Shown: piece by piece, positions 17,324 through 26,772 of the stretch
Position numbering within the stretch: the stretch's first letter is position 1
Layout: each line of letters begins with the position of its first letter
Source: Dokdonia sp. Dokd-P16
GTDB taxonomy: Bacteria > Bacteroidota > Bacteroidia > Flavobacteriales > Flavobacteriaceae
Reading direction: 5' to 3'
DNA length: 64,000 nucleotides
NCBI RefSeq assembly: GCF_003095655.1
Contig: NZ_CP029151.1
Coordinates: 3,285,001-3,349,000 of the forward strand
Translations under genes and position numbers: made by a program
Notes under the pieces: generated by a model
The model's input: only the letters and a program-made list of their open reading frames with translations
The model's database searches: none
What the model was told of the DNA's origin: nothing

Positions 17324-17572
17324 TTAAGACTGTACTTTTGCCTCGATAATCTCGATAGCAGACTGCACCGTTTCCATTTTTTCTATCTCATCATCTTCAA
17401 TAGTAATATCAAAATGATCTTCTACGTCAAGCACGACATCTACAAGGTTTGCAGAATTTACGTTGAGTTCTTGAGTTAAGTGGCTTGTAGGTTTTATATC
17501 ATCTACAGAGACATCTTCTGGTAGGTAAATTTTGATGATATTCTTTAATGCTTCGTAGTGTTCGTTATTCAT
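17324..17572 (-). CDS. acyl carrier protein of the type III PKS operon
   Basis: 82 residues, acidic and helical, with the usual carrier-protein length. The phosphopantetheine serine is S40 in ELNVNSANLVDVVLDVEDHF. The motif is N-S-A where housekeeping AcpP has D-S-L, which points to a specialised carrier. It is the last gene of a seven-gene minus-strand operon and follows the ketosynthase by 54 bases. Its likely job is to carry the growing acyl chain for the ketosynthase, reductase and dehydratase encoded upstream, and to hand it to the type III polyketide synthase. Confidence 0.9.
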   Translation of the reverse strand: MNNEHYEALKNIIKIYLPEDVSVDDIKPTSHLTQELNVNSANLVDVVLDVEDHFDITIEDDEIEKMETVQSAIEIIEAKVQS

Positions 17573-17626
17573 AATCTTATGTGTAAGCTGTGATAATTAC
17601 CACAGTGTGTTATTTTAAATATTTAG

Positions 17627-18898
17627 TTATTCAAATTTCTTAAAAAGCATACAGCAATTAACATCGCCAAAACCAAAACTAGCTTTTGCCGCTACGTTTA
17701 CAGGCATATCAATGGTTTGTGTGAGAACTTTATCTTGAGCTACGCGCGCTAATATTTCCGGATGTATGTGAGCCGAGTTAATATTTCCAAAAATACGACC
17801 TTCTTCAAGTTCTAAAATAGTCGCTACGGTCTCAATACTCCCAGCCGCCGCGAGACAGTGTCCCGTCATACTTTTAAGAGAATTGATATAAGGAAAATCC
17901 TTTCCTTTTAATCCTAAGGCTTCACTCCAATTTGCGACCTCGGTAGGACACATCCCTGTAGAGGTGAGATGCCCATTTATGGTATCAATTTCCGTCGCAG
18001 ATACTCCTGCATTTTTAACGGCAGTTTTTATACAATGCTGTACAGCCTCACTATTAGGTGCAGTCATAGTACCGCCATTACGCTGTCCTCCGCTATTTAC
18101 TGCACCACCTAAAACTTCGGCATATATCTTTGCCCCTCGTTGTTGTGCACTTTCGAGAGTTTCTAGCACTAATGCTCCTGCTCCAGCACCTGGCACAAAA
18201 CCATTTGCATCTTCCTGCATAGGTCTGCTCCCAGCTTCTGGATCTTCATTATATTTTTTTGTGAGTACGCGCATCGCATCAAAACCTCCCCAAATATAAG
18301 GACCGCTATCATTGCAACTGCCTACAAGCATTCTCACAGCATCACCGTTGCGCACACGCTCATAGCCCATAAGTACGCTTTCTAGTCCTGTAGTGCAAGC
18401 ACTAGAATTAGTAGTTACTTGGTTTCCACAACCTAGATACCCTCCTAAATATGCACTAATACCACTTGCCATCGTTTGCACAACAGAAGTACTTCCTAAG
18501 CGGCGTACTTTGCCTTCATCAGTTAGGTATATAGCACTTCTAAATTTTTCGGCACCTAGTAAGGAAACTCCAAAAACGATTCCGCTATCATAATCAACGG
18601 TGTCTTTATCCGTAGGTGCAAGTCCAGCGTCTGTCCACGCATCTACTCCTGCTATCATTCCGTACTCAATTCCAGAACTTTGTAAATCTCGCAGTTGTAA
18701 AGCTGTAAAATAGTTTTCGAGCATTCCTTTTGGAATTTCTGGCTGCCCTGCAATCTGACACCCAAAGTTGAGGTCTGCTAGTTTCTGGTGAAATTTAATT
18801 CCACTTTTACCTGAGAATATGGCATCAGAAAATGCTTTGAGACCTATTCCATTAGGTGCACAAACGCCCATTCCAGTTATAACTACTCTATTTTTCAT
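17627..18898 (-). CDS. beta-ketoacyl-ACP synthase (FabF-like) of the PKS operon
   Basis: A 423-residue thiolase-fold condensing enzyme. The active site is Cys-His-His: C168 in NSSACTTGLE, H310 in INGHLTSTG and H347 in SLKSMTGHCLAAAG, with the supporting lysine K342. The histidine motif NGHLTSTGMC departs from the NAHGTST of housekeeping FabF, so this is a divergent, pathway-specific enzyme. Its start overlaps the stop of the dehydratase by one base. With the ACP, FabL/FabI-type reductase and FabZ-like dehydratase it forms most of a fatty-acid elongation cycle; no separate ketoreductase is seen in the operon. Confidence 0.92.
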   Translation of the reverse strand: MKNRVVITGMGVCAPNGIGLKAFSDAIFSGKSGIKFHQKLADLNFGCQIAGQPEIPKGMLENYFTALQLRDLQSSGIEYGMIAGVDAWTDAGLAPTDKDTVDYDSGIVFGVSLLGAEKFRSAIYLTDEGKVRRLGSTSVVQTMASGISAYLGGYLGCGNQVTTNSSACTTGLESVLMGYERVRNGDAVRMLVGSCNDSGPYIWGGFDAMRVLTKKYNEDPEAGSRPMQEDANGFVPGAGAGALVLETLESAQQRGAKIYAEVLGGAVNSGGQRNGGTMTAPNSEAVQHCIKTAVKNAGVSATEIDTINGHLTSTGMCPTEVANWSEALGLKGKDFPYINSLKSMTGHCLAAAGSIETVATILELEEGRIFGNINSAHIHPEILARVAQDKVLTQTIDMPVNVAAKASFGFGDVNCCMLFKKFE

Positions 18899-19332
18899 TA
18901 TTTAGTACTAAAAATTCCTGCAAGTGTTCCTTTTACACATACCTCATCTTGCGCATTAAGAAGCTTCACATTACATTTTAATTTATTAAATCTAAAATAG
19001 GCCTCCTCTGATACAACGGTCACTTTCTCGCCAGGCATCACAGGTTTTAAAAACTCAACATCTGCGCTAGTAAATGCTACTTTTAAAGCAGCTAGATCTT
19101 GACCTGCCAACTTAGAAATACCCAGACTTACTAAACCTATTTGCGCCATGCATTCTGTAAGTATCACGCCAGGTGTAACAGGATTACCCTTAAAGTGTCC
19201 TTCATAAAAATAAGATGCTCTAGAAAATGTATAAGAACCAACAATATATGAGTCACCCAGCTCTTCTATCTGATCTACAAATAGAAAAGGTGCCGTATAA
19301 GGTAATAGCGCTATGATCTCTTCACTACTCAT
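18898..19332 (-). CDS. FabZ-like hotdog dehydratase of the PKS operon
   Basis: 144 residues, one hotdog domain. The signature GHFKGNPVTPGVILTECMAQIG supplies H46 and E60, the catalytic pair of FabZ 3-hydroxyacyl-ACP dehydratases. It overlaps the reductase gene upstream by four bases and touches the ketosynthase gene downstream, so translation is probably coupled. Its role by context is to dehydrate hydroxyacyl-ACP during assembly of the starter chain. Housekeeping FabZ of Bacteroidota is usually fused to LpxC, so this separate copy is likely dedicated to the pathway. Confidence 0.9.
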   Translation of the reverse strand: MSSEEIIALLPYTAPFLFVDQIEELGDSYIVGSYTFSRASYFYEGHFKGNPVTPGVILTECMAQIGLVSLGISKLAGQDLAALKVAFTSADVEFLKPVMPGEKVTVVSEEAYFRFNKLKCNVKLLNAQDEVCVKGTLAGIFSTK

Positions 19333-20117
19333 CGTATATGCTCTCCTCCATCTACAGGAATCACTGTCCCGTTAATCCAGGATGCTTCATCACGTGTTAA
19401 TAAATACACAGCATTGCCTACATCCTTAGGCAGTGTTAATCGCTTATAGGGATTACGTTGTTGTGCCATTTCTTTCATATGCTCACTCCCAGGTATGAGG
19501 CGTAAGCTCTCTGTATCTGTCACTCCTGCTTGAATACAGTTAGACGTAAGACCTAGTGGTGCAAACTCTAATGCAATCCCTCTCGAGATGGCTTCAAGAG
19601 CTGCTTTGGCCGCAGCAACTGCGCCATATTGTGGCCATGCTTTGCTGCTACCTTCACTTGTAAATGCAATGGCTCTAGCAGATGGGGTAAATAATTCCGC
19701 TTTCGCGAAAGCGGATACCCAATCATAATAACTCACTGCCATAGCGTCCAGTGTGCCTTTAAAATCCTCGTTACTAAGCGTAGCGCCGTCTTCTGAATAT
19801 AAAGGCTTCAAATTACCACGGGCGATGCTATGCACCACTACTTTTATGGCTCCTACACCCACAGTATCTTTTATTTCAGTGATAGTAGCTTGACGCTTAT
19901 CTGCATTAAGGGCATCTGTATTATATGATAAAATGGTCGCTCCAGAAACTTCCATCTCACGCATAGCGTCTTCAAAAGCTGCTATCACACTACGACGAGA
20001 TCTATGAATGATGATGATATTCATTCCCTCATGCGCTAGTTTCTTTGCGGTGGCTAGCCCAAGACCTGAGCTACCTCCTAAGATTACTGCATATTTATTC
20101 TTATAAGATTGACTCAT
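19329..20117 (-). CDS. SDR enoyl-ACP reductase-like protein (FabL/FabI type, Y-x6-K)
   Basis: About 262 residues of a short-chain dehydrogenase. The cofactor loop GGSSGLG is at 14-20. The catalytic pair is Y164 and K171, spaced Tyr-x6-Lys as in enoyl-ACP reductases FabI and FabL, not Tyr-x3-Lys as in FabG; VVVHSIARG also resembles FabI. It is therefore likely an enoyl-ACP reductase, although the classic-SDR glycine motif makes it closer to FabL. The codon before this ATG is GTG and could add one residue. A palindrome copy (19697-19714, a perfect 18-base palindrome) encodes SAFAKAEL at about 135-142, in the helix before the active site. Confidence 0.88.
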   Translation of the reverse strand: MSQSYKNKYAVILGGSSGLGLATAKKLAHEGMNIIIIHRSRRSVIAAFEDAMREMEVSGATILSYNTDALNADKRQATITEIKDTVGVGAIKVVVHSIARGNLKPLYSEDGATLSNEDFKGTLDAMAVSYYDWVSAFAKAELFTPSARAIAFTSEGSSKAWPQYGAVAAAKAALEAISRGIALEFAPLGLTSNCIQAGVTDTESLRLIPGSEHMKEMAQQRNPYKRLTLPKDVGNAVYLLTRDEASWINGTVIPVDGGEHIR

Positions 20118-20120
20118 CAC

Positions 20121-21173
20121 TTACCATTTTAATAATACACGTTGCGCCGAGAATCCTGGACCAAAACTCAACATAATTCCTAAGTCTCCTTCCTTACATT
20201 CTCTATCAAGAAAACGTTCTAAAACGTACAACACAGTAGCACTACTCATATTTCCATATAATTTAAGTATCTCCTTCGTGTCGTCTATATTCTTTCCAAG
20301 CTTACCAAAGAGATCCTCAACCGTTTCTACAATTTTACGTCCTCCTGGATGAAATATAAGATGATTTACATCTTCTATACTATATCCATTCTTTTCTAAA
20401 AAAGGATGAATTATATCTGGAAACTTATCTGCTATCTGTTGTGGCACCTGTTGATCTAGAATCATCTGTAAACCACTATTTACAAGCTTAAAGCCCATCA
20501 TTTCTTGAGCATCATAAAAGTGATACATTTCTGTATCCACTATTTGCGGCCCGCTATCTTCTTCTTTACTTGACATGAGAACGCAAGCCGCACCATCTCC
20601 AAAGATAGCTGCACTCACCACGTTTACCATCGAGTAATCATCATGTTGAAAGGTAGCCGTAGGACTTTCTATCGCAATTACTGCTGCTCGTTTTCCAGGA
20701 TTTGCTTTAAGAAATTCATTTGCATATAGCACACCACTTACTCCAGCAGCACAACCCATCTCCGTTACCGGTAATCGTACAATATCTTGGCGTAGTTTGA
20801 GCGCGTTAATTAGATATGCATCTAGCGAAGGTATCATGATACCTGTACAGCTTACCGTAATGATATAGTCTAGGCTAGTACCTTCCCATGAGGCTTTAGT
20901 AAGCGCTTTAGATAACACCTGCTCGCCTAGTTTTACAACCTCACGAGTGTAAATGTCATTTTTTTCTTGAAAACTTGTGGCTGTAAACACCTCTTCTGGC
21001 GCCATAATGCTATAGCGCTTGTCTACAGCAGCATTACCAAAAATCTTCTTAACCTTACGTTTAAAACGATCTTCTTGCCCATCTAGCCATAGGTCTAGAA
21101 AAGGCATTATCTCTGCTGTAGTACGTGAATATTGTGGTAACTGTTTTGCTACCGTCGTAATGGTTACGCTCAT
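20121..21173 (-). CDS. type III polyketide synthase
   Basis: 350 residues from MSVTITTVAKQ, whose ATG overlaps the methyltransferase stop (ATGA); an ATG 18 bases upstream is possible. The chalcone/stilbene synthase-family triad is complete: C141 in TEMGCAAGVSG, H275 in IFHPGGRKIV and N308 in YGNMSSATVL. The closing motif is SFGPGFSAQRVLL. Such enzymes extend an acyl starter with malonyl-CoA and cyclise it to alkylresorcinols or alkylpyrones. The operon partners, methyltransferase and FAD oxidoreductase, parallel the srsA-srsB-srsC phenolic lipid genes of Streptomyces griseus. The product is inferred, not known. Confidence 0.93.
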   Translation of the reverse strand: MSVTITTVAKQLPQYSRTTAEIMPFLDLWLDGQEDRFKRKVKKIFGNAAVDKRYSIMAPEEVFTATSFQEKNDIYTREVVKLGEQVLSKALTKASWEGTSLDYIITVSCTGIMIPSLDAYLINALKLRQDIVRLPVTEMGCAAGVSGVLYANEFLKANPGKRAAVIAIESPTATFQHDDYSMVNVVSAAIFGDGAACVLMSSKEEDSGPQIVDTEMYHFYDAQEMMGFKLVNSGLQMILDQQVPQQIADKFPDIIHPFLEKNGYSIEDVNHLIFHPGGRKIVETVEDLFGKLGKNIDDTKEILKLYGNMSSATVLYVLERFLDRECKEGDLGIMLSFGPGFSAQRVLLKW

Positions 21174-21877
21174 ATAGTTTTTATCACCCACAAATATCTA
21201 AACGCCCATTTCCATTGTATGGAATAGTCGTCTAGTGCAAGTTGTTTTGAATAGGTTTCTAATTCTTTTCTTCTAAAAGAACGGGCAATGCTCACTCTTC
21301 CGTCGTATTTAGCAATCTTACTTTTCATAAATATACCGCTAAAAAGCTGAAATAAACGGTACGCTATCTTACTTCGCTGTAAATCGTTAACTATGATACC
21401 AATACTTGCCAACTTTTTAAATTTCTCCATAAACACCAATAGTTGTTCATCAGAAAAATGGTGCATTGTTAAGGTACATATAATCACATCACATTCAAAC
21501 GTAGTTTCATCTATCGTTAATATATTCTGGCGGCTAAAGGTTAAGTTATCATAGTCCTTAGATTTCTCTCGGGCGCTATCAATACTTTTATCATTGATAT
21601 CAACCCCAAAAAACGAAATATCAATAGTGCTTTTTTGAAAGTGCTTAGCTATGTGTCTCAATACCTCTCCATCGCTACAACCCACATCTACTATCTTCCA
21701 TTTCCTTTTCTCGGGGTGTGCACTTATTAATTCTTCTAGCGCGGTAATCGTAATGTGATTACCTCCTAGGTATTTATTTACCGTAGCGAGGTCCTTTAAT
21801 GCTAGATGTAAGTCTGCCTCCGGAAGACTGGGGTCATCCATTAACTCAGGAGTGGTGCTACGATTTTTAAAATTCAT
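21170..21877 (-). CDS. class I SAM-dependent methyltransferase of the PKS operon
   Basis: 235 residues with SAM motif I VDVGCSDGEVLRHIA (about 63-77), the acidic end of strand 2 (GVDINDKSI) and the motif IICTLTMHHFS. The C-terminal half is basic and hydrophobic (RSKIAYRLFQLFSGIF), consistent with membrane association. It overlaps the type III PKS start by four bases and the FAD oxidoreductase stop by one. By context it would methylate the aromatic polyketide lipid. A quinone-ring methyltransferase is an alternative, but the tight operon argues for the PKS product. Confidence 0.88.
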   Translation of the reverse strand: MNFKNRSTTPELMDDPSLPEADLHLALKDLATVNKYLGGNHITITALEELISAHPEKRKWKIVDVGCSDGEVLRHIAKHFQKSTIDISFFGVDINDKSIDSAREKSKDYDNLTFSRQNILTIDETTFECDVIICTLTMHHFSDEQLLVFMEKFKKLASIGIIVNDLQRSKIAYRLFQLFSGIFMKSKIAKYDGRVSIARSFRRKELETYSKQLALDDYSIQWKWAFRYLWVIKTI

Positions 21878-22995
21878 TATGTTATAAGATTTCCGTGTGT
21901 AGACTGTATCACGCTACTTAATAATTTTGGCGACTTTTGAAGTATCCCTACTCCTAATCTAGTTATCGTTGTATTATGCAACCCACGCTGTATAAGCGCC
22001 CCGTTGCGCATTCTCTTGGCAAAGTTGCGTTTCCATTGTTTTGTGTATTCTTTCTCTAGCTGTTCTCGTTTATTTAGATTTCCTCTATGATCAATAAGAC
22101 ACTCACTAGCAATCTTTGCGCTATGTATTGCCATTGCCATACCGTTACCGCATAAAGGATGTATAAGTCCTGCACTATCACCTATCATAAGTATGTGATT
22201 TTCCACAGCAGATTTATCTTGAAATGAGATCTGACTAATGGTGAGTGGTTTTTCAAAAATAGGTTCCGCTTGCGCGAAAAATTCTTTTAAATAACGATTT
22301 TGCTCTAACACCTCAACTCGATATGTGTCTAAGTCTTTATGCTTTTTGAACGAATTTACATCTGCTAGATAACAAACATTTATTGCGTCTGTTTCCACTT
22401 TTGATAATCCGCAGTAACCTCCTGAAAAATTGTGCAATGCTACTAGATCTTCTGGAAATTGTCCAGCATAATGTGCTTTTACACCCATCCAAGGGGATTT
22501 TGTACTTATAAATTTTCGCGAAAGCGTAATATCTAATCCGCTTCTCTTACCAAAAGCTCCAAGAGCATAAGGCGCCCGAAAGCTTTTATCTTTTGTAGTG
22601 ACCTCAAATTCCTCTCTCCCGAAAGTAACATTTATCACTGTTGCCTGCTCAAATACCAACCCTAAACTTAAAGCTCGTTCATATAGCGCTAGATCTAAAG
22701 CATACCTGCTAATCCCAAAACCTCCTAAGGGAAGTGCAATCTCAAGTGCATTTCCAGAGAGTCCAGAAAATTGAAAACGGTTTATTTTCTTAGCGCCATT
22801 AGTTATGGGATATATACCTAACGCATCAAGATATGGCAATACTTCATTAGAAACGTACTCTCCACATACCTTATGCTTAGGGTATGTATTTTTCTCAATA
22901 AGAACCACAGAGAAGTCAGCTTGCAGCAAGTGTACAGCGGCTGTGAGTCCTGCAAGACCCCCACCTATTATTATGATATCACAATCTTGTTCCAC
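21877..22995 (-). CDS. FAD-dependent oxidoreductase, geranylgeranyl-reductase/hydroxylase-like
   Basis: 372 residues. The N-terminal Rossmann motif IIIIGGGLAGLTAAVHL binds FAD. YPKHKVCGEYVS follows, as in the geranylgeranyl reductase family, then the GD motif MIGDSAGLIHPLCGNGMAMAIHSA. It is the first gene of the operon, so the promoter should lie just upstream at 22996-23020, though no clear box is visible. It is a monooxygenase-like flavoprotein that could hydroxylate or oxidise the polyketide ring, as SrsC does. A palindrome copy at 22514-22523 is read as TLSRKFIS. A degenerate copy near 22266 is read as FFAQAEP. Confidence 0.9.
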   Translation of the reverse strand: MEQDCDIIIIGGGLAGLTAAVHLLQADFSVVLIEKNTYPKHKVCGEYVSNEVLPYLDALGIYPITNGAKKINRFQFSGLSGNALEIALPLGGFGISRYALDLALYERALSLGLVFEQATVINVTFGREEFEVTTKDKSFRAPYALGAFGKRSGLDITLSRKFISTKSPWMGVKAHYAGQFPEDLVALHNFSGGYCGLSKVETDAINVCYLADVNSFKKHKDLDTYRVEVLEQNRYLKEFFAQAEPIFEKPLTISQISFQDKSAVENHILMIGDSAGLIHPLCGNGMAMAIHSAKIASECLIDHRGNLNKREQLEKEYTKQWKRNFAKRMRNGALIQRGLHNTTITRLGVGILQKSPKLLSSVIQSTHGNLIT

Positions 22996-23023: not shown

Positions 23024-23056
23024 AAAAATCCCCAAAACATAAGTTTTGAGGATTTT
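23024..23056 (-). terminator. hairpin terminator after the OmpA-family gene
   Basis: The arms AAAATCCCCAAAAC and GTTTTGAGGATTTT sit 25 bases past the stop of the minus-strand OmpA-family gene. Confidence 0.85.
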
Positions 23057-23080: not shown

Positions 23081-23791
23081 TTAGTTCCCTCCGTTTGCTT
23101 CTTTCATTGCATCCTGCTTCATCTCTTCGTTAGGAACAATAGCAAGTTGAACACGTCTGTTTTGAGCACGTCCCTCTGCAGTATCATTACTTGCAGCTGG
23201 CTGCGCTTCACCGTACCATACCGTTGTAAATCTTCCTGCAGATAATCCAGTACCCACCATATAATTAGTAACTGCGTTAGCTCTATTTTGTGATAAGGTC
23301 ATGTTATTTGTATCCGACCCTACACTATCAGTATGTCCAGCAACTACAACATTAGTTTGATTATATTCTTTCATAATATTAGAAAGTTTATTTAGTAACG
23401 TTTGGCTTGCTGTATTAACGTTGTACTTTGCAGTATCAAAGTAAACACCAGAGGTTTCATCAAATGTCACTACAATGCCATCATCTATACGCTCTACAGT
23501 AGCTCCTGGAAGTTCTTGCTCGATTTGTTGTGCTTGCTTATCCATCTTGTTACCAATTAGAACACCTGCTCCACCACCTACTACACCACCTATAACGGCT
23601 CCTAGTTCTCCATTTCCACCTTTACCAGCATTGTTCCCAATGATAGCTCCAAGGATTGCTCCACCTGTAGCTCCTATAACAGCTCCTTTCTGTTTGTTGT
23701 TTGCATTTTTTGTAGCCTCACAACTTGTGAAACCTGTAAGCATTGCTGCTCCTAATGCTATTACTGTGATATTTCTTACTATATTTTTCAT
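23081..23791 (-). CDS. OmpA-family outer-membrane lipoprotein with glycine zipper
   Basis: 236 residues. The signal ends in a lipobox-like GFTSC. A glycine-zipper segment (about 35-85, GAVIGATGGAILGAIIGNNAG and a second GAVIGGVVGGGAG) precedes an OmpA C-terminal peptidoglycan-binding domain (about 105-225) with VYFDTAKYNVN, VVVAGHTDSVGSD and LSQNRANAVTNYM. The domain order matches YiaD-type proteins. It probably ties the outer membrane to the cell wall. It follows the lipocalin-like gene by 35 bases on the same strand. Confidence 0.92.
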   Translation of the reverse strand: MKNIVRNITVIALGAAMLTGFTSCEATKNANNKQKGAVIGATGGAILGAIIGNNAGKGGNGELGAVIGGVVGGGAGVLIGNKMDKQAQQIEQELPGATVERIDDGIVVTFDETSGVYFDTAKYNVNTASQTLLNKLSNIMKEYNQTNVVVAGHTDSVGSDTNNMTLSQNRANAVTNYMVGTGLSAGRFTTVWYGEAQPAASNDTAEGRAQNRRVQLAIVPNEEMKQDAMKEANGGN

Positions 23792-23826
23792 AATCTTAAT
23801 TCTTTAAGTTGATTGTTGACTACAGA

Positions 23827-24312
23827 CTACTCTGCTATTTTTGTAAAATTCATTGTGATATTAAATGGCTTTCCTTCTACGCTTACTGTCTGTGACATTT
23901 GTAATTGATCTTCAGAAAGGTAAGAAAGTGCAACTCTAAAACCAGCATTAGTTTCAGACTTCATTTTGGCATCTGTTGGTTTTACAAGAATATTATAATT
24001 CATATCATCCCCTTCATTATCTGGAATACTCCATACGAAGTAACGCTTCTCTATATCACAGCCTACTCCAGAAAGTTCGTAGTTTCCAAAGTTATTATTT
24101 GGGATAAAACGCCATGTACTTCCTTCCATACATTCTTGTGATGCGTCATTGAAAAGGTTGATTTTAAAAGTTCCTTGACGATCATAACTTACTTCGTTAA
24201 GCGTCCAAGTTCCTTTGAGTGTTTTTTTAGATTGCTTTACCACTTGAGATGGTCCACAGCTTGCTATAGTAGCAACTAAAAGAACGAGTATTACTGATTT
24301 TATATATTTCAT
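23827..24312 (-). CDS. lipocalin-like lipoprotein
   Basis: 161 residues. The lipoprotein signal has the box TIASC. The mature part has the lipocalin-like GTWTLNEVSYD strand and later GSTWRFIPNNNFGNYEL, typical of the short lipocalin family of Bacteroidota. Two further cysteines (in SQECME and GVGCDI) could form a disulphide. It is likely co-transcribed with the OmpA-family gene downstream. Ligand unknown. Confidence 0.85.
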   Translation of the reverse strand: MKYIKSVILVLLVATIASCGPSQVVKQSKKTLKGTWTLNEVSYDRQGTFKINLFNDASQECMEGSTWRFIPNNNFGNYELSGVGCDIEKRYFVWSIPDNEGDDMNYNILVKPTDAKMKSETNAGFRVALSYLSEDQLQMSQTVSVEGKPFNITMNFTKIAE

Positions 24313-24330
24313 AATAGTTAGGGTTAAATT

Positions 24331-24369
24331 AAAAAAAGCAACCTTTCATAAGTGAAAGGCTGCGTTTTA
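24331..24369 (-). terminator. hairpin terminator after the DUF1328 gene
   Basis: The arms GCAACCTTTCA and TGAAAGGCTGC (one mismatch) are flanked by a run of A on the left, which is T in the minus-strand transcript. Some read-through into the lipocalin-like gene is likely, because only 18 bases follow. Confidence 0.75.
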
Positions 24370-24386
24370 AGTATGTTTAGATAGTC

Positions 24387-24548
24387 TTATCTTTTAAATA
24401 ATCTACTTACTAAAGAAAGTAAGAAGAGTACAATAAAGATGAAGAATAATATTTTTGCAATGCTTTCTGCACCTTCTGCGATTCCTCCAAATCCAAATAC
24501 TGCTGCGATGATTGCAATGATGATAAAAATAACTGTCCAGCGTAACAT
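24387..24548 (-). CDS. DUF1328 (YtjA-type) small membrane protein, 53 aa
   Basis: The reverse strand encodes a 53-residue peptide starting [19 protein letters not shown] and ending [10 protein letters not shown]. It has two hydrophobic helices joined by [13 protein letters not shown], which is the pattern and length of the DUF1328/YtjA family of inner-membrane peptides. Family members are often stress-induced; I infer an envelope-stress role. The two envelope lipoproteins follow it on the same strand. Confidence 0.9.
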
Positions 24549-24714
24549 AATATATTGTTTTTATTGATTAGTATGATGTAAAAGTATCTGTATATGCCGC
24601 TTTATTTTTATGCTTTAGCAGCTTTTAACTAGGATCTGTTAACGATACGCCAATAATAATTGCAAACATTGGTTTTTGCTTAAAATATTAACATCTTAAA
24701 CCATCGTATAAAAC

Positions 24715-24750
24715 AAAGCCCCTAACTACATGATGTAGTTAGGGGCTTTT
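24715..24750 (-). terminator. hairpin terminator after the E1 gene
   Basis: AAAGCCCCTAACTACAT is followed directly by its reverse complement and a T-rich tract. It lies 20 bases past the E1 stop. Upstream of it, 24549-24700 shows no gene. Confidence 0.85.
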
Positions 24751-24768
24751 AATTTTTTTATACTTGTC

Positions 24769-26772
24769 TTAGTAATCTAGTAACTCTTGAAGTGTGCTAG
24801 CTAATCGCTCTACAGGTAAATACTGTTTCTCAAGTTCTGCATCAAAAGGTATAGGAGTATCTAAACTCGCAACACGTCTTACAGGAGCATCTAGGCTTTC
24901 AAAACATTCTTCCATAATCATTGCCGAAATATCAGACATTACAGATCCAAAGGCGCTGTCTTCTGTAAGTAGTAACACTCTTCCCGTTTTACGTACAGAG
25001 GTAATTATTGCTTCTTTATCTAACGGCTGTAACGTACGCAAGTCTAGTAAATCTGCAGAGACATTAATACTATCAAGCAACTCAATTGCCCAGTGCACGC
25101 CTGCGCCATAGGTTATAATAGTTACTTGCTCGCCTTCTCTTACTAATGAAGCTCTACCTAGAGGTAATGTGTAGTAGTTAGTTGGCACCTCTTGACGGAT
25201 GCTGCGATATAATTTTTTATGCTCAAAAAACAGTACTGGATTAGGGTCTTCTATTGCAGTCGCTAGCAATCCTTTTGCATCTGCTGGAAACGCTGGATAC
25301 ACCACTTTTAAACCTGGTGTATGGGTAAACCACGCTTCATTTGTTTGCGAGTGAAAAGGACCTGCCCCCACACCAGCACCACAAGGCATACGTATCACCA
25401 CATCTGCGGGTTGAGACCAACGATAGTGTGATTTTGCGAGGTAGTTTACAATAGGATTAAACCCAGAAGTTGCAAAATCTGAGAATTGCATTTCCATCAG
25501 TGCTTTTTTACCATTGATTGCAAGACCCATAGCTGTCTCTACAATGGCGCTCTCGCAAATAGGTGTGTTACGCACACGATCGCGACCAAACTGCTCCACA
25601 AAACCATCAGTGATTTTAAATACACCTCCGTATTCGGCTACATCTTGCCCCATGATCACAAGATCATCATACTTCTCCATAGACTGTCTCAGTCCTTGGG
25701 AAATTGCATCAATCAAGCGGAGTTCTTCTGTGTCTTTGCTTGGTACGCTTTCGCGAAAGCTAAACGGAGCATATACATCATTCATCTCAGTTTCTAGATT
25801 AGGAGTTATATTCTCCTCTGCATATGCTTTATCTAGATGTTCTGTGATTTCCTCTTTAATAGAGACTTCATAAGCATCTTTTGTCTCTTGAGAGAGAATC
25901 CCTTCTTGAATTAAGTACTTTTCAAAATTAAGTAGCGGGTCTTTTTCTCCCCATACTTCCATTAATTCCTCAGGAACATACTTGGTACCACTTGCTTCCT
26001 CGTGACCACGCATTCTAAATGTTTTAAACTCTATTAAAACAGGACGCGGATTGTTACGAATATCTTCAGTAATTTCTGAAATCTTAGTGTAGACCTCTAG
26101 AATATTATTCCCATCAATGATGTGAGATTCCATCCCATAACCTTTTGCTCTATCTGCAAGATGCTCACAATTATATTGCTCACTAGTAGGTGTCGATAGT
26201 CCGTATCCGTTATTCTCTATGCAGAATAGCACAGGTAACTGCCACACAGAAGCGACGTTTAGCGCTTCGTGAAAATCTCCTTCACTTGTTCCACCTTCCC
26301 CAGTAAATACTGTGGTTACAGCCTTCTCACTACGTAATTTATGTGCAAGTGCAATACCATCTGCCACACCTAGTTGCGGACCTAAGTGAGATATCATACC
26401 TACAATATTAAATTCTTGTGTCCCAAAGTGAAAACTACGATCGCGTCCCTTTGTAAAGCCGCTCATTTTCCCTTGCCACTGTGTAAATAATCTATATAAA
26501 GGAATCTCACGAGTAGTAAAAACACCGAGGTTACGGTGCATAGGTAATATGTACTCTTCTGGCTTCATCGCAGCAGTAACTCCTACGGAGATTGCTTCTT
26601 GGCCTATTCCAGAAAACCATTTTGACACCTTTCCTTGTCTTAGTAAAATAAGCATGCGCTCCTCTATTAATCGAGGTTTAAGCATTGCTCTGTATAGTCT
26701 AAGTAAGGTATCGTTATCTAAAGATGCTCTATTGTAAATAAAGGTTATGCTAGATTTTGTTGTAGTCGCCAT
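24769..26772 (-). CDS. fused 2-oxoacid dehydrogenase E1 alpha-beta subunit, branched-chain type
   Basis: 667 residues: E1-alpha (about 1-335) fused to E1-beta (about 350-667). The thiamine-diphosphate motif runs from GEGGTSEGDFHEAL to ENNGYG in the alpha half. The beta half has MGQDVAEYGGVFK, CESAIVETAMGLA and PCGAGVGAGPFHSQ. It oxidatively decarboxylates a 2-oxoacid and passes the acyl group to an E2 lipoyl enzyme, which is not encoded nearby. Substrate preference for branched-chain oxoacids is by family likeness. The palindrome at 25749-25758 encodes FSFRESVPS exactly in the alpha-beta linker (about 337-345). A matching -7 box lies upstream. Confidence 0.93.
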   Translation of the reverse strand: MATTTKSSITFIYNRASLDNDTLLRLYRAMLKPRLIEERMLILLRQGKVSKWFSGIGQEAISVGVTAAMKPEEYILPMHRNLGVFTTREIPLYRLFTQWQGKMSGFTKGRDRSFHFGTQEFNIVGMISHLGPQLGVADGIALAHKLRSEKAVTTVFTGEGGTSEGDFHEALNVASVWQLPVLFCIENNGYGLSTPTSEQYNCEHLADRAKGYGMESHIIDGNNILEVYTKISEITEDIRNNPRPVLIEFKTFRMRGHEEASGTKYVPEELMEVWGEKDPLLNFEKYLIQEGILSQETKDAYEVSIKEEITEHLDKAYAEENITPNLETEMNDVYAPFSFRESVPSKDTEELRLIDAISQGLRQSMEKYDDLVIMGQDVAEYGGVFKITDGFVEQFGRDRVRNTPICESAIVETAMGLAINGKKALMEMQFSDFATSGFNPIVNYLAKSHYRWSQPADVVIRMPCGAGVGAGPFHSQTNEAWFTHTPGLKVVYPAFPADAKGLLATAIEDPNPVLFFEHKKLYRSIRQEVPTNYYTLPLGRASLVREGEQVTIITYGAGVHWAIELLDSINVSADLLDLRTLQPLDKEAIITSVRKTGRVLLLTEDSAFGSVMSDISAMIMEECFESLDAPVRRVASLDTPIPFDAELEKQYLPVERLASTLQELLDY

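Follow-up and report, generated by a model that had tools for sequence, protein, structure and literature searches.

Dokdonia sp. Dokd-P16 carries a type III polyketide synthase (PKS) gene in a compact row with genes for tailoring and fatty-acid-type enzymes. This arrangement raises the question of what the genes make together and whether the fatty-acid-type enzymes feed the PKS. The window, that is, the whole stretch of 64,000 nucleotides analysed here, is part of a single-contig genome of 3.62 Mb. We examined the genes themselves, their relatives across Bacteroidota and their inheritance. We propose that the operon probably directs the synthesis of a methylated and oxidised alkyl-phenolic lipid of the alkylresorcinol or alkyl-quinone type, in which the operon's own acyl-ACP feeds the PKS.

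Results

Seven intact genes form a tightly packed operon

Seven intact open reading frames occupy positions 22995-17324 on the minus strand of the window. They are given here in the order of transcription, preceded by a hairpin at the upstream end.

23025..23056, minus strand: terminator-like hairpin with U-run, separating the operon from the OmpA gene (-19.9 kcal/mol, z -6.0)
21877..22995, minus strand: FAD-dependent oxidoreductase of the geranylgeranyl reductase/flavin monooxygenase/halogenase superfamily (Pfam FAD_binding_3; NCBIfam GG-red-SF below cut-off; PDB profile matches)
21170..21877, minus strand: SAM-dependent methyltransferase, MT (Methyltransf_25/31, PRK06202-like)
20121..21191, minus strand: type III PKS (Chal_sti_synt N and C domains; Cys147-His281-Asn314; Phe234)
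19329..20120, minus strand: enoyl-ACP-reductase-type SDR, ER (Y165-x6-K172, HSIA motif)
18898..19332, minus strand: FabZ/FabA-like hotdog dehydratase, DH (His46/Glu60)
17627..18898, minus strand: FabF-like ketosynthase of a separate module clade, KS (Cys168-His310-His347)
17324..17572, minus strand: acyl carrier protein, ACP (Ser40; NSA replaces DSL at the phosphopantetheine site)

Domain and profile matches bore out the original prediction, which had placed seven genes of these families at these coordinates. The complete Cys-His-Asn triad and the Y-x6-K motif that it had named are both present, and the triad together with the two Chal_sti_synt domains assigns the PKS to type III. The predicted packing by overlaps of 1 to 4 bases was found at the FAD/MT (1 nt), MT/PKS (4 nt from the ATG at 21173; 22 nt from the GTG at 21191), SDR/DH (4 nt) and DH/KS (1 nt) junctions, but not between the PKS and SDR genes, which abut without overlap, or between the KS and ACP genes, where a 54-nt gap forms the sole junction that neither overlaps nor abuts. 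For the PKS, the conserved ATG at 21173 is the probable start codon. The 3' end of the operon lies 1 nt from a convergent gene. Since a strong hairpin separates the OmpA gene from the FAD gene, the transcription unit plausibly begins downstream of it; promoter-like matches near the operon were no more frequent than in shuffled sequence. Upstream of the operon, at 23081-26772, the order E1 dehydrogenase-lipocalin-like-OmpA lipoprotein is kept in many Flavobacteriaceae genera, and the terminator-like hairpin cuts this block off from the window operon.

The PDB profile matches of the FAD enzyme are mixed and comprise flavin halogenases, geranylgeranyl reductases and monooxygenases. Judged from its sequence, it is a probable ring hydroxylase. 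The first three genes had been likened to srsC, srsB and srsA of Streptomyces griseus, whose srs locus is a three-gene cassette of PKS, MT and FAD-type enzyme. The parallel is one of gene content (FAD, MT, PKS).

The gene order is conserved across Bacteroidota

About 100 loci share the order FAD-MT-PKS-(ER)-DH-KS-ACP(-PPTase), and their genes mostly overlap or abut (median junctions -4 to +6 nt). The operon is thereby conserved across Flavobacteriaceae, a check proposed with the original prediction, and reaches beyond this family to Chitinophagaceae, Sphingobacteriaceae and Saprospiraceae. Within Flavobacteriaceae it occurs in Dokdonia, Leeuwenhoekiella, Flagellimonas/Muricauda, Aequorivita, Winogradskyella, Psychroserpens, Gelidibacter, Salinimicrobium, Aquimarina and many Flavobacterium; outside, it was found in Chitinophaga, Flavihumibacter, Pedobacter and Saprospiraceae MAGs. 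The window PKS is 98% identical to the copy of an uncultured Dokdonia and 85-87% identical to those of other Dokdonia. More distant loci in further families (PKS 50-61% identity) retain FAD-MT-PKS-ER-DH-KS. The catalytic residues of the PKS are conserved in 104/104 relatives, and the key residues of KS, DH, SDR and ACP are likewise kept.

At 65 loci, a PPTase gene follows the ACP as an eighth gene, with a median overlap of 4 nt; it is usually absent from loci in the window's own context (E1-lipocalin-OmpA-FAD). In 19 loci, a gene for a YceI lipid-binding protein lies directly upstream of the FAD gene (median overlap 1 nt); a planctomycetal type III PKS operon also has a lipid/isoprenoid-binding gene (PMC10896814).

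Chance adjacency of the genes was ruled out by the recurrence of their order at about 100 loci, and also by the co-occurrence and the split loci described below. Carriage on viruses or plasmids was rejected as well: the viral sequence scan found no relative, and plasmid relatives all fall below 60% identity (30-36% among the matches listed). In one locus (L036:6441-6818), an unrelated gene, by eye a GIY-YIG-like nuclease, sits inside the operon. Similar unrelated insertions between ER, DH and KS occur in Winogradskyella- and Gelidibacter-type loci, with no loss of operon genes.

The PKS belongs to a separate, Phe-type clade

The PKSs of this operon form one clade (SH-aLRT 100), separate from other Bacteroidota type III PKSs. 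At the position of ArsB Trp281, all clade members (104/104) have the Phe found as Phe234 in the window, and 12 further relatives (50-72% identity) have Phe or, once, Tyr. The Trp of resorcinol-type PKSs, present in 14/16 of the other Bacteroidota type III PKSs, is missing from the window enzyme, although Phe234 is still aromatic. The neighbours of those other PKSs are an ICMT-type methyltransferase (the Bacillus BpsB type), or MT/FAD genes, or neither; KS or ACP genes were found beside none of them in 16 sampled loci. Scored with the DarB model, whose cut-off is 550 bits, the window PKS reaches only 21. CylI is among its nearest PDB relatives.

The ArsB Trp281 position steers resorcinol versus pyrone cyclisation, and an aromatic residue there favours resorcinol, while Gly at the same position in ArsC goes with pyrones (PMC6274091). 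An aromatic residue is retained in the Phe-type clade, so resorcinol-type cyclisation is the likelier guess for these enzymes. Alternatively, the PKS could make alkylpyrones, which the MT would O-methylate and the FAD enzyme would modify on the pyrone or the chain. This has in its favour that the nearest solved relative of the PKS is Pks11 of M. tuberculosis, an alpha-pyrone synthase, and that the cyclisation position holds Phe, not Trp. We regard it as unlikely, given that the residue is aromatic in all relatives and not Gly as in the pyrone-forming ArsC, and that the Bacteroidota PKSs beside an ICMT-type methyltransferase belong to a different clade.

The acyl genes form a portable module that lacks a ketoreductase

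The best NCBIfam match of the SDR is FabL (below cut-off), its nearest PDB chain is FabL (3oic), and it has a FabI-like HSIA motif. It was considered as the missing ketoreductase (KR) and ruled out, since it combines Y-x6-K with HSIA, whereas the FabG of the same genome has Y-x3-K and NAG. The SDR being of the enoyl-reductase type, the operon has no ketoreductase, as the original prediction had noted, and an inspection of the window operon and of conserved blocks at other loci found none. A canonical FabG is encoded elsewhere in the genome (L082). The cluster does not contain a complete type II elongation set (KS, KR, DH, ER and ACP): the KR is absent and the ER is optional, missing in about 30 loci, chiefly of Flavobacterium and Pedobacter and also in some Winogradskyella operons.

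The KS was ruled out as a plain duplicate of FabF. It shares about 31% identity with the FabF of this genome and falls in a separate clade on a long stem. The module KSs group together as a single clade (SH-aLRT 100) that includes neither FabF nor any other KS from the genomes sampled, among them those of Flavobacteriaceae. The operon ACPs carry NSA at the phosphopantetheine site in 91/95 cases and NSS in 4, and the housekeeping ACP has DSL. Several operons of family f80 have no neighbouring private ACP. At L222-L224, the operon is only a few genes away from the housekeeping acpP-fabF pair, a hint that the module can make use of AcpP.

Relatives of the KS at 46-54% identity occur outside this operon. 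In two genomes (G344 and G625), ER-DH-KS-ACP-PPTase is divergent from DarB, DarG and DarH genes; these calls were made by testing the models on the G344 copies, which score above cut-off, and the G625 genes are homologs at 70-75%. The ACP of the G344 module gave only a weak match. In three more (G322, G369 and G292), genes for a GNAT-like protein and a family-2 glycosyltransferase lie on the flanks of DH-KS-ACP, which is accompanied by ER in one genome; one of the three also has a BioF/serine palmitoyltransferase-like gene nearby. Other copies are solo with a PPTase, one of them with KAS III inside (L217), and solo-module ACPs mostly have NSA, also NSM or DSF. Since DH-KS-ACP(-ER-PPTase) also occurs without this PKS, it constitutes a portable acyl-ACP module without ketoreductase.

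At L208:2351-12746, L209 and L210, the acyl module adjoins the GNAT-like protein and family-2 glycosyltransferase genes, together with a gene for a serine palmitoyltransferase-like enzyme at L208. Bacterial ceramide synthase is GNAT-like. A sphingolipid link of the GNAT-flanked modules is a lead only.

The optional ER bears on a different order of events, in which the PKS would first make a small aromatic acid in a DpgA- or orsellinate-like manner. The ACP would receive this acid, KS and DH would lengthen it to an aryl-polyene-like chain, and the ring would be methylated and oxidised. DpgA is the best NCBIfam match of the PKS (175 bits), and in the loci lacking an ER, a module with KS and DH alone could retain double bonds in the chain, like those of aryl polyenes. 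We consider this quite unlikely, as the DpgA score is far under the 425-bit cut-off, the DpgB-D partners were not seen, no ligase or transferase is present for moving an aromatic acid to the ACP, and relatives of the module adjoin other lipid genes at loci that have no type III PKS.

The two halves of the operon are inherited together

Among 249 genomes of the family, the KS ortholog is present in 84 and the PKS ortholog in 85 (plus one distant, at 32%), and 84/84 genomes with the KS carry the PKS (Fisher p ~1e-66, uncorrected for ancestry). The 85th PKS genome (G138) has no KS ortholog, and its contig ends inside the DH gene. Across 395 genomes of the phylum, a close PKS and a close KS each occur in 33, and the two sets of genomes are identical, a count likewise uncorrected for shared ancestry. 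In two genomes (G144 and G190), DH-KS-ACP has moved to a second locus with its order intact and is still present; the two splits look like one shared rearrangement.

The original prediction had divided the operon into three srs-like genes and four genes for a dedicated elongation cycle. The comparison of genomes strongly supports such a division, with FAD, MT and PKS as a head-group cassette and ER, DH, KS and ACP as a dedicated acyl module: co-occurrence is strict, both parts are retained after splitting, and the module occurs alone beside other lipid genes. That the PKS uses ordinary acyl-CoA and is merely co-transcribed with a module making a separate lipid is very improbable: the module exists without this PKS and so has uses of its own, but the co-occurrence is strict in both genome sets and both halves were retained after splitting.

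Discussion

A proposed route to a phenolic or quinone lipid

Taken together, we favour the reading in which an acyl-ACP made by the module primes the PKS. DH, KS and ACP, with ER where present, would build or remodel a dedicated acyl chain on the operon's own NSA-type ACP, and the missing ketoreduction may be supplied by housekeeping FabG. The PKS would take the acyl group from the ACP as starter, add malonyl units and close the ring, presumably to a resorcinol rather than a pyrone. The MT and the FAD enzyme would then methylate and hydroxylate the ring, in the order proposed here. The product may serve as a membrane lipid or an electron carrier. Counting against the route are the module's want of a KR, the f80 operons without a neighbouring private ACP, Phe in place of the Trp tested in ArsB, Pks11 as the nearest solved relative and the mixed relatives of the FAD enzyme.

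A wider picture is offered tentatively, at somewhat less than even confidence. A Bacteroidota portable acyl-ACP module (DH, KS and NSA-type ACP, usually with ER and PPTase and without KR) may have been plugged into several lipid systems, namely the Phe-type PKS clade, the DarB dialkylresorcinol genes and the GNAT/glycosyltransferase set. Here it would determine the tail of a phenolic or quinone lipid not yet described, which could act as an auxiliary electron carrier or as an antioxidant in bacteria that are very common in the sea and in soil.

The operon is present in about one third of the family genomes sampled and keeps one conserved chromosomal place in several genera. This wide presence, the conserved place and the retention of the split-off half suggest that the product is an important lipid and not an antibiotic made only occasionally. 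Should it be a quinone, Bacteroidota would join actinobacteria as makers of polyketide quinones. The portable module also offers a discrete, testable case of bacteria giving different lipids their own tails.

Elsewhere in the same genome, outside the window (L173:4876-19001; contig positions 3512876-3527000), a Sfp-type PPTase and a TetR-like regulator accompany a large type I PKS set. This set comprises KS-AT-four ACPs, a KR-DH protein and a second protein with two KS domains, and resembles a PUFA-synthase-like secondary lipid cluster.

Comparison with known systems

Among the unassigned BGCs of Flavobacteriaceae, type III PKS clusters rank with the commonest, amounting to 10.7% of the BGCs of the family (PMC10734526). 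No product of this operon was found in the open-access literature searched, in line with its earlier description as little characterised. The kinds of genes and both couplings, the MT/FAD/PKS cassette and the FAS-PKS link, are already known separately; their union, the Phe-type PKS clade and the portable KR-less module with NSA-type ACP were not found described in the open-access literature searched.

Cassettes of an MT, an oxidoreductase and a type III PKS lead to alkylresorcinols or polyketide quinones (PMC10896814, PMC9927152). The Dokdonia operon shares with srs, pkqABC of Mycobacterium smegmatis, hidABC of cyanobacteria and the planctomycetal operons the union of a type III PKS, an MT and a FAD oxidoreductase in one operon. 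Such three-gene cassettes yield alkylresorcinols or alkylquinones that are methylated and/or oxidised (PMC9927152, PMC10896814). The Dokdonia operon differs by four, often five, added acyl-ACP genes and in its PKS, which belongs to a clade of its own and has Phe where ArsB has Trp281.

Acyl-ACP is accepted by ArsB/ArsC and GCS (PMC6274091). The ars system of Azotobacter vinelandii resembles the Dokdonia operon in having a private FAS, where ArsA hands an ACP-bound chain directly to the type III PKSs ArsB and ArsC (PMC6274091). However, the ars ACP is a domain of the synthase, whereas the Dokdonia proteins are discrete, include no ketoreductase and are encoded with tailoring genes in one operon. 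In the cylindrocyclophane pathway, a free-standing ACP (CylB) and upstream elongation feed the resorcinol-forming type III PKS CylI (PMC8086630); that pathway has type I PKS modules and a halogenase, and its PKS clade and organisms are different. The flexirubin/dialkylresorcinol clusters (Dar, Flx) also make Bacteroidota resorcinol lipids, and a relative of the module stands beside DarB, DarG and DarH in two genomes. Their ring is formed by DarB-type chemistry, whereas the Dokdonia operon has a type III PKS in place of Dar genes.
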